Source: Candidatus Magnetocorallium paracelense (GTDB lineage: Bacteria > Nitrospirota > Thermodesulfovibrionia > Thermodesulfovibrionales > Magnetobacteriaceae). From it: 64,000 nucleotides of DNA. Each line of letters begins with the position of its first letter. The first letter of the stretch is position 1. The notes under the pieces were generated by a model. It ran no database searches. It saw nothing but the letters and a program-made list of their open reading frames with translations, and was not told the origin of the DNA. Both the position numbers and the translations under genes were made by a program. Location: NCBI GenBank assembly GCA_029001845.1, contig JAREWP010000033.1, positions 62,001 through 126,000 on the forward strand, read 5' to 3'. This document shows positions 16,509-58,016 of the stretch, in pieces.

Positions 16509-17277
16509 AATCTCTGCTCAGGTATTTCAACTCTGCATTTTCTGCCCTTAAACCTGCAAACAGTAGTCAGCTGTCAGCCCTCTGTTTTCAACGTTTTGCA
16601 TAAAAACCGGCATATCACTTTTAGTCGCTTATAAGGGAATTTTTTTGAAATTCCCCGGCGTTAGATCAAACCTTTTTGGTTCCGGCTACGCCGGGTTGAG
16701 TGAGGCTATTCTTAACATGACGCTTTGTTTTTTCTCAGCTGACTGCTGATAGCTGACCGCTGACAGCTTTTTTTAGGTTAAATCGCTTTACCCCTTATCC
16801 GGGCAGCTTACCTTTCACGCCTTGTAGTTCACGATCTGACAGCCGGATTTCAGTAGTAATCTTAAACATGCTATAATAGAAATGCACTTTTGCCGGTTTA
16901 GATAATTCAAAAATGCAGTCAGCCATCAGTGCTCCGCCTTTTTATTAAGAAAACTCCTGACACTATTCTACTGACAGATAACGTCTTTAGTTGAGCGGAA
17001 ACAAGTAGAAATCTCAGTTCTCTTGATTTTAAGGAAACAGAATTTACACCATTAGATATTGGAAAGATTTAAAAGAATTGCGCCTTCTTTTAAACCTAAA
17101 AAAAGCATTTAGCTGTCAACGATCAGCAGTCAGCTAAGAAAAATCAATACCTTACGTTAAAAACAAGGTTCACCCAAAAATGATGCGCCTATTGTCAGAC
17201 ACTATGAGGAAAACAGAGAGCTGATAGCTGAATGCTGATGGCTGAATGCTGTTTTTAGGTTAAAGAGATATTCAATT
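16509..17277. other. Intergenic region built of dispersed repeats
   Basis: No gene is convincing here. It contains several copies of the AGCTGACTGCTGATAGCTGA repeat (about 16736-16776 and 17217-17262 in forward sense, 17100-17136 inverted). It also has a TTTAGTCGCTTATAA segment (16619-16634), which is the reverse of a motif repeated at 31000, 33960 and 35450, and a hairpin around GGGAATTTTTTTGAAATTCCCC (16636). A GGTTCCGGCTACGCCGGGTTG segment (16678-16698) recurs near 31170. Confidence 0.55.
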
Positions 17278-31203: not shown

Positions 31204-32442
31204 ATGGAAACAAAAAAAATATTAATAGTAGAGGACGAATTTTTTATCGCTAATAACATAAAGGTGATATTGGAAAGCAGCGGATATACGGTAACATCCA
31301 TTGTAGCGACAGGTGAAGGGGCGATCCAAAGAGTCGAAAGGGAGACTCCCGATTTGGTGCTGATGGATATCGAGCTGAATGGGGAAATGGACGGTATAGA
31401 AACAGTTAATGAGATACACGCTCGATATGATATGCCGGTAATATACATGACTGCCTATACAGATGAAAAACTCCTTGAACGGGCTAAGCTGACAGAACCC
31501 TTCGGCTATTTGGTGAAACCCGTTAATGAGAGAGAATTACAAACCAACATCGAGATGGCGCTGTATAAACACAAAACGGAAAACAGATTAAAAGAGATGA
31601 ACAGAAACCTTGAAAAAAGAGTCCTCGAAGAGATGGAAAAACGTATTCAAAAAGAACAATTACTAATCCAACAATCCAAGATGGCGGCAATGGGAGAGAT
31701 GATTGGAGCAATCGCTCACCAGTGGAGGCAGCCCCTTAATTCAATAAACATTATAGCTCAGGATTTACCGGACGCTTATAAATTTGGAGAGCTCGATGAG
31801 AAATATATTAAAGAGGCCGCAGAGAAGACAATGAATCTGGTTGATTATATGTCTCAGACAATAGACGATTTCAGAGACTTTTTCAAACCAAGTAAAGAGA
31901 GAGTCCCCTTTAAAGTAAATACAGCGATAAAAGAGATTATTCAACTTCTCTATTATCAACTGATAAAGGCGGATATAGGCATATCACTATCATGTACTTA
32001 TGAGGGAGCAACAAAAAAGCCCCCCCTGGGCGACAGAGGCGAAATATGCATTTGTAAGCCTGAGATCGTGGTTACGGGATATCCGAACGAATTCAAACAG
32101 GCGATATTGAATCTGCTCACCAATGCCAGAGACGCCATTATCGACAGAAAGGAACAGGGCCTCTTAAAAGAGGAAAAGCAGGGTCTGATTTCAATAGAGA
32201 TTTCCAGGGAAAACCAATTGGCAGTAACAAAAATAAACGATAACGGCGGCGGGATTTCAGAGGAGTCATTAAAGAAAATTTTTGAACCCTATTTTACAAC
32301 AAAGGGAGACGACGGGACAGGCATTGGTCTGTATATGTGCAAAACGATCATAGAGAATCACATGGGAGGAAGAATTCGTGCCAAAAATATCGGCGAAGGT
32401 GCGGAATTCAGATTAGAGCTGAAAATGGAAAACGACTGTTAA
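31204..32442 (+). CDS. REC-histidine kinase
   Basis: The likely start is the ATG at 31204, just before METKKILIVEDEFF; an in-frame start at 31117 would add 29 residues encoded by repeat DNA. The 412-residue protein has an N-terminal receiver (4-120; LMDIELNGEMDG; LVKPVN), a coiled coil, a dimerisation/phosphoacceptor helix with SKMAAMGEMIGAIAHQWRQP (His near 169), and an HATPase with NEFKQAILNLLTNARDAI, NDNGGG and GTGIGLYMCKTII. The HQWRQP box groups it with the kinases at 43530 and 53555. It is cytoplasmic, with no membrane helix. The receiver is probably phosphorylated by another kinase and modulates this one. Confidence 0.93.
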   Translation: METKKILIVEDEFFIANNIKVILESSGYTVTSIVATGEGAIQRVERETPDLVLMDIELNGEMDGIETVNEIHARYDMPVIYMTAYTDEKLLERAKLTEPFGYLVKPVNERELQTNIEMALYKHKTENRLKEMNRNLEKRVLEEMEKRIQKEQLLIQQSKMAAMGEMIGAIAHQWRQPLNSINIIAQDLPDAYKFGELDEKYIKEAAEKTMNLVDYMSQTIDDFRDFFKPSKERVPFKVNTAIKEIIQLLYYQLIKADIGISLSCTYEGATKKPPLGDRGEICICKPEIVVTGYPNEFKQAILNLLTNARDAIIDRKEQGLLKEEKQGLISIEISRENQLAVTKINDNGGGISEESLKKIFEPYFTTKGDDGTGIGLYMCKTIIENHMGGRIRAKNIGEGAEFRLELKMENDC

Positions 32443-32495
32443 CGGTTCACCGGGATCTGAGGTCAGAGGTCAGTTGAAATTGAAGGTAAAAAAAG
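32443..32495 (+). repeat. Partial copy of the GTTCACAG repeat element
   Basis: GGTTCACCGGGATCTGAGGT, then CAGAGGTCAGTTGAAATTGA and AGGTAAAA, match one end of the 154-bp MITE-like family (full copies at 42877 and 57771). Only this end is visible here, starting directly after the stop codon of the REC-kinase gene. Confidence 0.55.
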
Positions 32496-42735: not shown

Positions 42736-43107
42736 AAATATCTTACTGCTGAGGAAGAGTATAAATTCAGTAACAGTTCACGGGGGTCAGGGATCAGAGG
42801 TCAGTTACTGTTATAACTTCTTCATCCATTGTCCGATAGGCTATTATTACTCATAAATCCGGTTTTTTCATTGGAGGTAACTGTTCACATAGTTCAGGGG
42901 GCGGGGGTCTGTTTAAAGAGATTTGCCTTGTTTCTCAAACTAAAAACTCCAAAAAGCTTATGAAATTCAATAAAAGAAGTCCATTTTACCTTCAACTGAC
43001 CTCTGACCTCAGGTCACAGTGAACAGTTACGATTGGAGAAAGGCTCTGTTATATAAAACCGGCCTCTGATCTCCGACCCCTGTGAACTATTACTAAATAA
43101 ATTTATT
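42736..43107. other. Gap holding a full MITE-like element and single ends
   Basis: 42772-42811 and 43063-43094 are single ends of the GTTCACAG family facing each other, outside the complete element at 42877-43030. No gene was recognised. Confidence 0.5.
42877..43030. mobile_element. MITE-like element, 154 bp, copy A
   Basis: It is bounded by perfect 12-base terminal inverted repeats, GTAACTGTTCAC / GTGAACAGTTAC, with imperfect pairing further in (AGTTCAGG..., TCTGTTTAAAG against CCTTCAACTGACC). The interior includes AACTCCAAAAAG and TGAAATTCAATAAAA, and both occur in the same order in the inverted full copy at 57771-57923. It has no coding capacity. Family ends recur at 32443, 33767, 53249, 53337, 53452 and 56862. 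Confidence 0.7.
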
Positions 43108-53229: not shown

Positions 53230-53554
53230 TGGCATACCTCCCTGTTATCGGTTCACAGGGATTTGAGGTCTGAGGTCTGTTTAAGGTAACGGAGTGTATA
53301 AGCACTGATTATACGCCGGTTTTTAGGGGAAAACACTCAAACAGACCTCCCGTCCCTGATCCCTGTGAACTGCTTTAAATTAATAATAAAAACAGCAGTC
53401 ACTGTCAGCCTTCAGCCAAGGAAATATCTGACATTATGCAATAAAAGCGAAACTGTTCACAGAGTTCAGGGATCGGTGGTCTGTTTAAGTAGTTAAAAAC
53501 TGACAGCTAAATGCTTTTTGGGGGATAATCTCTTCTTCCTCTCCTGTCTCATCG
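53230..53554. repeat. Gap with facing ends of the GTTCACAG family
   Basis: 53249-53376 is bounded by GGTTCACAGGGATTTGAGGT and its inverted counterpart CCGTCCCTGATCCCTGTGAA, forming a 128-bp element with a divergent centre. 53452-53488 is another single end, and an AGCTGA-family fragment (ACAGCAGTCACTGTCAGCC) lies at 53392-53415. No gene was recognised. Confidence 0.55.
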
Positions 53555-56509: not shown

Positions 56510-57055
56510 TTTTTTTTAGTCTGTCAGTGGTGATCTGAGATCGCCTGAAGGTGAAAGAGCTGTTTATTCTTATTTACCGGGGTATGCCCCCGGTAAAGTC
56601 GGGTTCATACTGTAAGCTTTTTAAGGTGACTTTAAACATTAACTGTTCGCACTGATTTAACCCGAAAATAAGTAGGGGCAGACCTGTGTGTCTGCCCCGG
56701 CGGTGGCGAACGAACAAACGCACCGGAGTAAAGCACGCGACCGGGGCGCACACACAGGTTCGCCCCTACGAATCATCATAAATAATTTTCATGCTTTGTG
56801 GTGGCCCGGAGGTTCATGGACCTTTGCTCATAAAATATGCAACAAAACATTTTTTATCTTTAACTGACCTCTGATCTCAGATCACAGTGAACAGTTACTT
56901 TCTTAGGGTTGACTCAAAAATAAATTCGTAATTAAAAGAGACAGATTTGCATTATATTTGGATGCACTGAATGAGCAAAACCGCAGGCATAGCAGCGCTA
57001 TGTTGAGGATTTTGCGATTGAAGTGCAATCAAAGATGATGTGAAGGTGTCACCTT
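56510..57055. other. Gap with palindromic repeats before the REC-PAS4-kinase gene
   Basis: From left: a GTTCACAG-family-like end (56520-56555), a 98-bp palindrome (56672-56769), another GTTCACAG end (56862-56897), then a second MITE-like element starting at 56908. The promoter of the REC-PAS4-kinase must lie among these repeats unless the gene is read through from the small-protein gene. Confidence 0.5.
56672..56769. repeat. GTAGGGGC palindrome
   Basis: Left arm GTAGGGGCAGACCTGTGTGT plus CTGCCCCGG, right arm CCGGGGCGCACACACAGGTT plus CGCCCCTAC: about 29 bases with few mismatches around a 40-base G+C-rich centre. Related GTAGGGGC hairpins are widespread in environmental bacterial genomes. Only one copy is in this window. 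Confidence 0.65.
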
Positions 57056-57082
57056 TTAATGCGAATTTATTTTTGAGTCAAC
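56908..57082. mobile_element. Palindromic MITE-like element, 175 bp
   Basis: The ends are perfect 21-base inverted repeats, beginning GTTGACTCAAAAATAAATTC on the left and its complement on the right. Pairing continues inward: ATTAAAAG/CTTTTAAT, TGCACT/AGTGCA, GCAAAA/TTTTGC and GCATAGC/GCTATG at the centre. It carries no gene of its own. Its right 27 bases are read as the last codons and stop of the small helical protein gene, so it has inserted at that gene's 3' end. Confidence 0.75.
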
Positions 57083-57490
57083 TCTTCGTAAACTGAACAG
57101 TGCTTTTAAGGAATTAATGTATTGAGACAGGTATGATTTAATTTTAATGTGTGACTCTCCTAAGTTACACTTTTCTCGAATTTTCATATAAAGTTTCAGA
57201 TGTGTCTCATTCTCTCCCTGTTCAAAATAACCTATGATCTCATCCGATATGATTGATAAACAGTTTGCGCCTGTCTTATCGACTGTCACAATGTTATTTA
57301 TTCTTAAATAATTATGCAATGCCATTAACACGCCGATGCTGTATGTTAAATAACGAGTAAATAACTCATTTTCCTCGAACCCGATATCTTCCAAATGTGT
57401 CATAAAATGCAATAATGAAGGGACATCCCATTCTCCATTATGAGACTCTATAAATTCTACGGACTTTTCTATAAACTCTCTGTATTCCAT
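57056..57490 (-). CDS. Small helical protein, paralogue of the 44804 protein, C-terminus altered by MITE
   Basis: The 144-residue helical protein aligns with the 139-residue protein at 44804 through SVEFIESHNGEWDV, ALHNYL, CLSIISDEII and YINSLKALFSL. The paralogue ends right there, whereas this protein continues with RRVDSKINSH. Those last residues are read from the terminal inverted repeat of the MITE-like element at 56908-57082, which supplies the stop codon. Most mid-protein cysteines of the paralogue are absent. The gene lies about 550 bases upstream of the REC-PAS4-kinase, repeating the small-protein/REC-kinase order of the first locus. Function unknown; a kinase-associated regulator is the natural guess. 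Confidence 0.75.
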   Translation of the reverse strand: MEYREFIEKSVEFIESHNGEWDVPSLLHFMTHLEDIGFEENELFTRYLTYSIGVLMALHNYLRINNIVTVDKTGANCLSIISDEIIGYFEQGENETHLKLYMKIREKCNLGESHIKIKSYLSQYINSLKALFSLRRVDSKINSH

Positions 57491-58016
57491 AGATAGACCA
57501 CCGAAAATTAGGTATCAATAATTTGATCAAATCAAATATTGTACCAGACAGTTATTTAAAGAAAATGATAGGAAAAAACAGTGTTTAAGTAAGATAAAGA
57601 GCCTGAAACCGGGGATAAACATGCCTGTGGTTACATATCTGCATATGGGCATAAATGTATAGTAAGCATAGTTGTAACCAACTACTCTAAAAAAGCAATT
57701 AGCGGTCAGCTATCAGCTGTCAGCTAAATCTTTTCTAAGATTATACTCACCTGTAAGATGAAGCTTTTTTGTAACTGTTCACAGTAATCTGTGGTCAGAG
57801 GTCTTTTTTTATTAAATTTCAAGAGTATAATTGGCGTTTTCACCCTTTTTGGAGTTCTTACCGTGAAAAAAAGGAAAATCTCTTTAAAGAGACCACCGAC
57901 CCCTGAACTCTGTGAACAGTTACGCTTTTTTTGCATAATGTCTGATATTTCCTTAGCTTAAGGCTGACCGCTGACAGCTGTTTTTAGGTCTACTGATTTT
58001 TAGTATTATTTTCCTG
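57491..58016. other. Gap with AGCTGA repeats around a MITE-like element
   Basis: AGCTGA-family repeats in opposite sense at 57695-57727 and 57955-57988 enclose the full MITE-like copy at 57771-57923. No gene is credible. The promoter of the small helical protein should lie near 57500-57600. Confidence 0.5.
57771..57923. mobile_element. MITE-like element, 153 bp, copy B
   Basis: It has the same perfect 12-base terminal inverted repeats, GTAACTGTTCAC / GTGAACAGTTAC, as copy A at 42877. Read on the minus strand it follows copy A through GGTCTCTTTAAAGAGATTT, AACTCCAAAAAGG and GAAATTTAATAAAA. The two elements are thus the same family in opposite orientation, 15 kb apart. Confidence 0.7.

Follow-up and report, generated by a model that had tools for sequence, protein, structure and literature searches.

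A small minus-strand gene in the stretch of DNA analysed here (64,000 nucleotides, hereafter the window) almost certainly owes its present 3′ end to a transposition. A non-autonomous MITE would have inserted two codons before the stop codon, at a CTWAG-type target of which it duplicated the 3-bp TWA, and its right terminal repeat, which happens to be read in frame, now encodes the tail of the gene as VDSKINSH followed by TAA. In the protein, eight residues would thereby have replaced a one-residue tail (K). Most likely the element was mobilized in trans, by a DDE transposase whose type, IS5/PIF-Harbinger, is assigned solely from the GGG ends and the TWA duplication. The features are listed in Table 1.

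Table 1. Window coordinates of the element, of the gene that it ends and of the adjoining repeat
Feature	Position	Strand	Evidence
Helical-protein gene (144 aa) with its final 8 codons and stop inside the element	57056–57490	−	Frame and flank join
Element-coded tail VDSKINSH and TAA stop	57056–57082	−	Identical in eight other full copies
Palindromic MITE, 179 bp, single long imperfect hairpin	56906–57084		Nine full genome copies; fold z −11.6
Left terminal inverted repeat GGGTTGACTCAAAAATAAATTCG	56906–56928	+	Pattern search and copy alignment
Right terminal inverted repeat GAGTTGACTCAAAAATAAATTCG, 22/23 identical to left	57062–57084	−	Pattern search and copy alignment
Conserved hairpin tip region, about CAAAACCGCAGGCATAGCAGCGCTATGTTGAGGATTTTGCG, limits approximate	56979–57019	+	15 subfamily representatives
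Target duplication, left copy TTA	56903–56905	+	Position fixed by family-wide TWA duplication
Target duplication, right copy (TTC after one change)	57085–57087	+	Flank reading
Arm of second repeat family, whose AAGTAACTG end would have supplied the pre-MITE stop	56852–56899	+	42984–43030 at 91%; 57771–57803, 32440–32478

A palindromic element and its relatives

The extent of the element, 179 bp at 56906–57084, was set by aligning its nine full copies. The preliminary description had placed a 175-bp element with perfect 21-base inverted repeats at 56908–57082. Those repeats (GTTGACTCAAAAATAAATTCG) are indeed found at 56908–56928 (+) and 57062–57082 (−) and the element is real, but comparison with the other copies moves its limits two bases further out on each side, to the GGG at 56906 and to 57084. 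The end sequence is GGGYTCACTCAAAAATAA, and at element position 178, in the right end, the window copy alone has T in place of C. The element is palindromic throughout, with 89-nt arms that are 72% complementary, and its DNA fold has an energy of −51 kcal/mol against a mean of −17.5 for shuffled sequences (z = −11.6; equalled by 0 of 200 shuffles). Short, free of any transposase gene and bounded by terminal repeats that agree at 22 of 23 positions, it has the build of a non-autonomous MITE.

With up to three mismatches allowed, the end pattern has 24 matches in the genome, while a reversed-pattern control has none. The search for further copies of the ends, proposed in the preliminary description, recovered eight more full ones, so that three near-identical copies, including that of the window, lie on the window's contig and six on other contigs. 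These eight are 97.8–98.9% identical to the window element, retain both ends and stand in unrelated surroundings; private changes per full copy number only 0–3 in 179, which points to recent activity. The full copies are accompanied, dispersed over the same genome, by about 30 diverged relatives that have in common TWA-GGG, a variable stretch, TCAnAAATAA (in most) and the hairpin tip of the window element. A tenth place (L066, at C60:48190) holds a 46-bp remnant made up of only the two ends. Remnants of 39–54 bp with little beyond two MITE ends are seen in this and foreign genomes (L066, L094, L133, L139, L155 and L187), and have the look of elements whose hairpin was deleted.

The same type of element, with GGG-YTSAS-TCAAAAATAARTT ends and the hairpin tip, is also carried by other Desulfobacterota and by Victivallaceae/Lentisphaeria. 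The degenerate end AGGGYYSASTCARAAATAARTT, scanned against 84,980 named genomes, yielded at least 109 stretches; the titled rows among the matches listed are mainly from Desulfobulbaceae, other Desulfobacterales/deltaproteobacteria, Desulfobacula and Victivallaceae/Lentisphaeria, and every matched end pair recovered from the matches listed is either MITE-sized (39–203 bp) or derives from separate MITEs or remnants. The family seems to be undescribed, none like it having been found in the literature covered by a limited search.

Conservation of the hairpin

The ends and the tip are the best conserved parts of the element among 15 subfamily representatives. In a 15-member alignment of 61 pairs, 94% of the cells are paired, and changes on both sides of a pair are far above those in shuffled and slid controls. 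Such a pattern bears on whether the hairpin is kept as RNA or as a folded single strand, for example as a 3′-end stabilizer or terminator, with mobility being secondary; this is a rather unlikely reading, and one compatible with the MITE reading. In its favour, 40 of the 61 pairs have changed on both sides among 15 diverged members (covariation 0.522 versus 0.230 when shuffled), the tip is better conserved than the mid-stem, and the tip-oriented strand has 104 G-T pairs against 37 A-C mismatches, counted in a palindrome alignment with no preference for wobble pairs, a ratio about double that given by base composition (roughly 1.5 to 1 by our own estimate). However, arm-to-arm copying in a mobile palindrome would likewise keep the arms complementary, and an Rfam search gave only chance matches, none within the element. 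Constraint acting on RNA or on a folded single strand may lie behind the G-T excess; the excess is only a lead, since part of it comes from shared ancestry and from a few tip positions that are fixed.

Two loci from two genomes of the same order (L071 and L072) have quite different outer parts (CAATTTCGAGACAAGTCAG and CAAAATTGGTTCTG) around the same tip, GGAGGCGTAGCAGCGCTACGTTGAGGA. The hairpin tip may be common to otherwise unrelated MITE families.

Target duplication and the route of mobilization

The 3 bp flanking the element are identical on the left and right in 44 of 63 curated copies (23 TTA/TTA, 20 TAA/TAA and 1 TCA/TCA). When the right flanks were shuffled in 20,000 trials, the mean number of identical pairs was 26.1 and the maximum 40; duplications of 2, 4 or 5 bp showed no excess over shuffles in the 63 copies. 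The commonest reconstructed empty sites are CTTAG (12/44) and CTAAG (10/44), which define the target as CTWAG. The 3-bp TWA duplication is family-wide and imperfect in the window copy, where it has decayed to TTA/TTC. This secure duplication, together with nine copies of at least 97.8% identity scattered over unrelated contexts, bears out the preliminary description of a mobile repeat: the segment at 56906–57084 is a transposed element, not a static repeat.

The duplication also weighs against a REP/BIME-like hairpin moved as single-stranded DNA by RAYT (IS200-like tyrosine) transposases instead of a DDE enzyme. An element that forms one long hairpin, in a genome with several RAYT-type genes (Y1_Tnp; L076–L079 and L081), would suit such a route; however, IS200-type insertion is not known to duplicate its target, whereas the 3-bp duplication found here on either side of the element is statistically secure, and what flanks the RAYT genes is GGGACAGG-type sequence and not the ends of the element. 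RAYT mobilization, which implies insertion without a duplication of the kind present here, is rejected on that account as very unlikely.

Mobilization by a DDE transposase agrees with a TNA/TWA duplication and GG-starting ends, the combination that marks IS5/PIF-Harbinger. The GG-starting ends and TWA duplication of the element also resemble those of the IS1031 group of IS5, which generates a TNA duplication. Both features are common to Tourist-like MITEs, PIF-Harbinger and IS5 and make up the whole of the link to them; TWA duplication is documented for PIF/Harbinger elements (PMC4482050).

No transposase with matching ends was found among the PF01609, PF13586 and PF13359 loci read, which came from the element's own genome, from 24 other carriers or from both. 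MITEs usually have their ends in common with an autonomous transposon, although orphan MITEs need not. An own-genome search for such a partner with the 14- and 21-base ends and with the degenerate end pattern likewise gave none among the matches listed, 100 for the degenerate pattern. Within 5 kb of 109 end-bearing loci, partner ends formed only MITE-sized pairs or belonged to separate MITEs or remnants with unrelated genes between them. A lone MITE end (L083:2516–2567; C9:120515) directly follows the stop codon of a gene for an AAA+ ATPase, which gives a weak match to PD-(D/E)XK. This locus was rejected as an autonomous element because its second end is absent, and it is probably half a MITE.

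How the element ends the gene

The minus-strand gene ends TTC AGT TTA CGA AGA / GTT GAC TCA AAA ATA AAT TCG CAT TAA, and from GTT onward these codons are the terminal-repeat sequence common to the other copies, so that the product closes with ...FSLRR-VDSKINSH-TAA. The private change at element position 178 falls in the arginine codon preceding VDSKINSH and is silent (AGG to AGA). Joining the flanks with one target copy removed predicts a protein of 137 aa ending ...KALFSLRRK*, against 144 aa now; joining with the other target copy, by eye, gives FSLLRK* and the same stop. The predicted empty site on the minus strand reads ...TTCAGTTTAC-(TAA or GAA)-GAAAGTAACTG.... As far as the joined flanks indicate the exact pre-insertion tail, the insertion would have swapped K-stop for VDSKINSH-stop. 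The preliminary description had ascribed the C-terminus to the element, which is upheld by the identity of the tail codons with the terminal repeat, by the flank join (FSLRRK*) and by the lack of the tail in homologues; of the 'about nine residues' that it had counted, the tail VDSKINSH and the new stop stand, making eight residues plus stop.

Paralogues in the same genome match the gene product with E values of 4e-16 and 5e-5. The paralogue at about 44.8–45.2 kb (minus strand, 32% identity) ends ...DSLKSLLKL*; it had been described as stopping where the element begins, and does stop near the junction, but about two residues before it, not exactly there. The best matches in the other genomes searched, all of them from outside the genus of the window's own, are about 25% identical. 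Homologues from further genomes of this bacterial family and the third own-genome copy have a common two-repeat helical domain followed by unrelated tails (after the common helix ATASGK, IQSSE, FSVKITEKK and FPPIATKLMSKVGLGKQAE), and none of those lacking the element has a VDSKINSH-like tail, which would have spoken against the element as its source. Since homologues share the domain and then diverge, the new tail lies outside the conserved part, and the insertion was probably tolerated and near neutral because what it changed lies beyond that domain. VDSKINS faintly resembles the ATKLMSK-type tails of some relatives, a similarity put down to chance, as the origin of the tail's DNA is known. 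A spurious or decaying frame, with a meaningless tail, might be supposed from a product with no Pfam or NCBIfam match, but is hardly credible given own-genome paralogues and homologues in several relatives that are open over similar length.

Other gene ends and adjoining repeats

Among 85 copies, open frames of at least 90 codons reach up to or into the element on 11 of 170 sides, and four of them encode recognizable proteins. A TetR-type regulator (L184) ends ..TIL-GLIQK*, with GLIQK* coming from the element in another frame, and a HEPN-like protein of the own genome (L004), recognized by a weak Pfam match that falls short of the curated cut-off, ends ..NLK-G* with a TGA from the element. In flhB (L106:3864–4931), the insertion point is the TAG stop itself, which is rebuilt from the target duplication and the first G of the element, and FlhB is therefore unchanged. 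The stop codon of a sigma-54 regulator (L148) is now a TAG made jointly by target and element, whereas with the flanks joined its frame would run on for another 88 codons. It is conceivable, if improbable, that this is a widespread hairpin-MITE family of Desulfobacterota and Lentisphaerae in which a CTWAG target containing a stop (TAA/TAG) in one frame and the first G of the element regenerate the stop codon upon insertion there, as in flhB, and in which the tip is functional. If so, such an element could settle harmlessly at gene ends, with its tip kept as a single-stranded or RNA structure.

The stop predicted by the flank join (AAG TAA CTG) falls on the border of a second repeat family, so the gene end may already have been repeat-derived before the MITE arrived. 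This second dispersed repeat, with the arm AAGTAACTGTTCACTGTGATCTGAGATCAGAGGTCAGTTAAAG, has copies at 42769–43030, 32440–32478 and 57771–57803, with an inverted pair at 42.8–43.0 kb. A third dispersed repeat at 56656–56827 (GTAGGGGCAGACC...GTTCGCCCCTAC and CATGCTTTGTGGTGGCCCGGAGG) is 83–89% identical at several other loci in the genome, and a fourth family, built on TCAGCTATCAGCTGTCAGC, is found at 57689–57725, 57927–57989, 16737–16778 and 53387–53488 and at many genome loci.

Known systems and implications

MITE-supplied C-termini are already known from Coxiella enhC, a Pectobacterium amidase and Rickettsia palindromic elements. QMITE2 of Coxiella burnetii is likewise a hairpin MITE, of 150–190 bp, that overlaps gene 3′ ends (PMC5896051); in strain Dugway the C-terminal 33 residues of EnhC come from it, and the stop codon follows directly downstream (PMC5896051). 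Compared by description, it makes 7–11 nt duplications of variable sequence, whereas the duplication here is a 3-bp TWA. The enterobacterial RU-1/RU-2 elements (ERIC-type; PMC2759123) are also non-autonomous hairpins found in frame at gene 3′ ends, and an RU-1 did away with the original stop of the Pectobacterium amidase ECA3499, giving the protein an extra tail past its conserved domain (PMC2759123); RU-1 differs from the window element in its length (127 bp), its TA duplication and its termini. Rickettsia palindromic elements (PMC10969869) resemble it as palindromes of about 150 bp that lie in frame in genes, but they integrate in frame within coding regions, whereas the window subfamily closes all three frames within nine codons. 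The Chunjie MITE of Geobacter uraniireducens (178–235 bp, about 38 copies, in an operon; PMC10969869) is similar by description.

The window case is ordinary in kind and unusually clean, in that the alteration of a protein end by a transposing hairpin can be written out base by base, before and after. The family offers dozens of natural replicates, the TetR, HEPN-like and FlhB gene ends included, of how far new C-termini are tolerated, and its paired arm changes and conserved tip pose a testable question, namely what keeps such hairpins intact.
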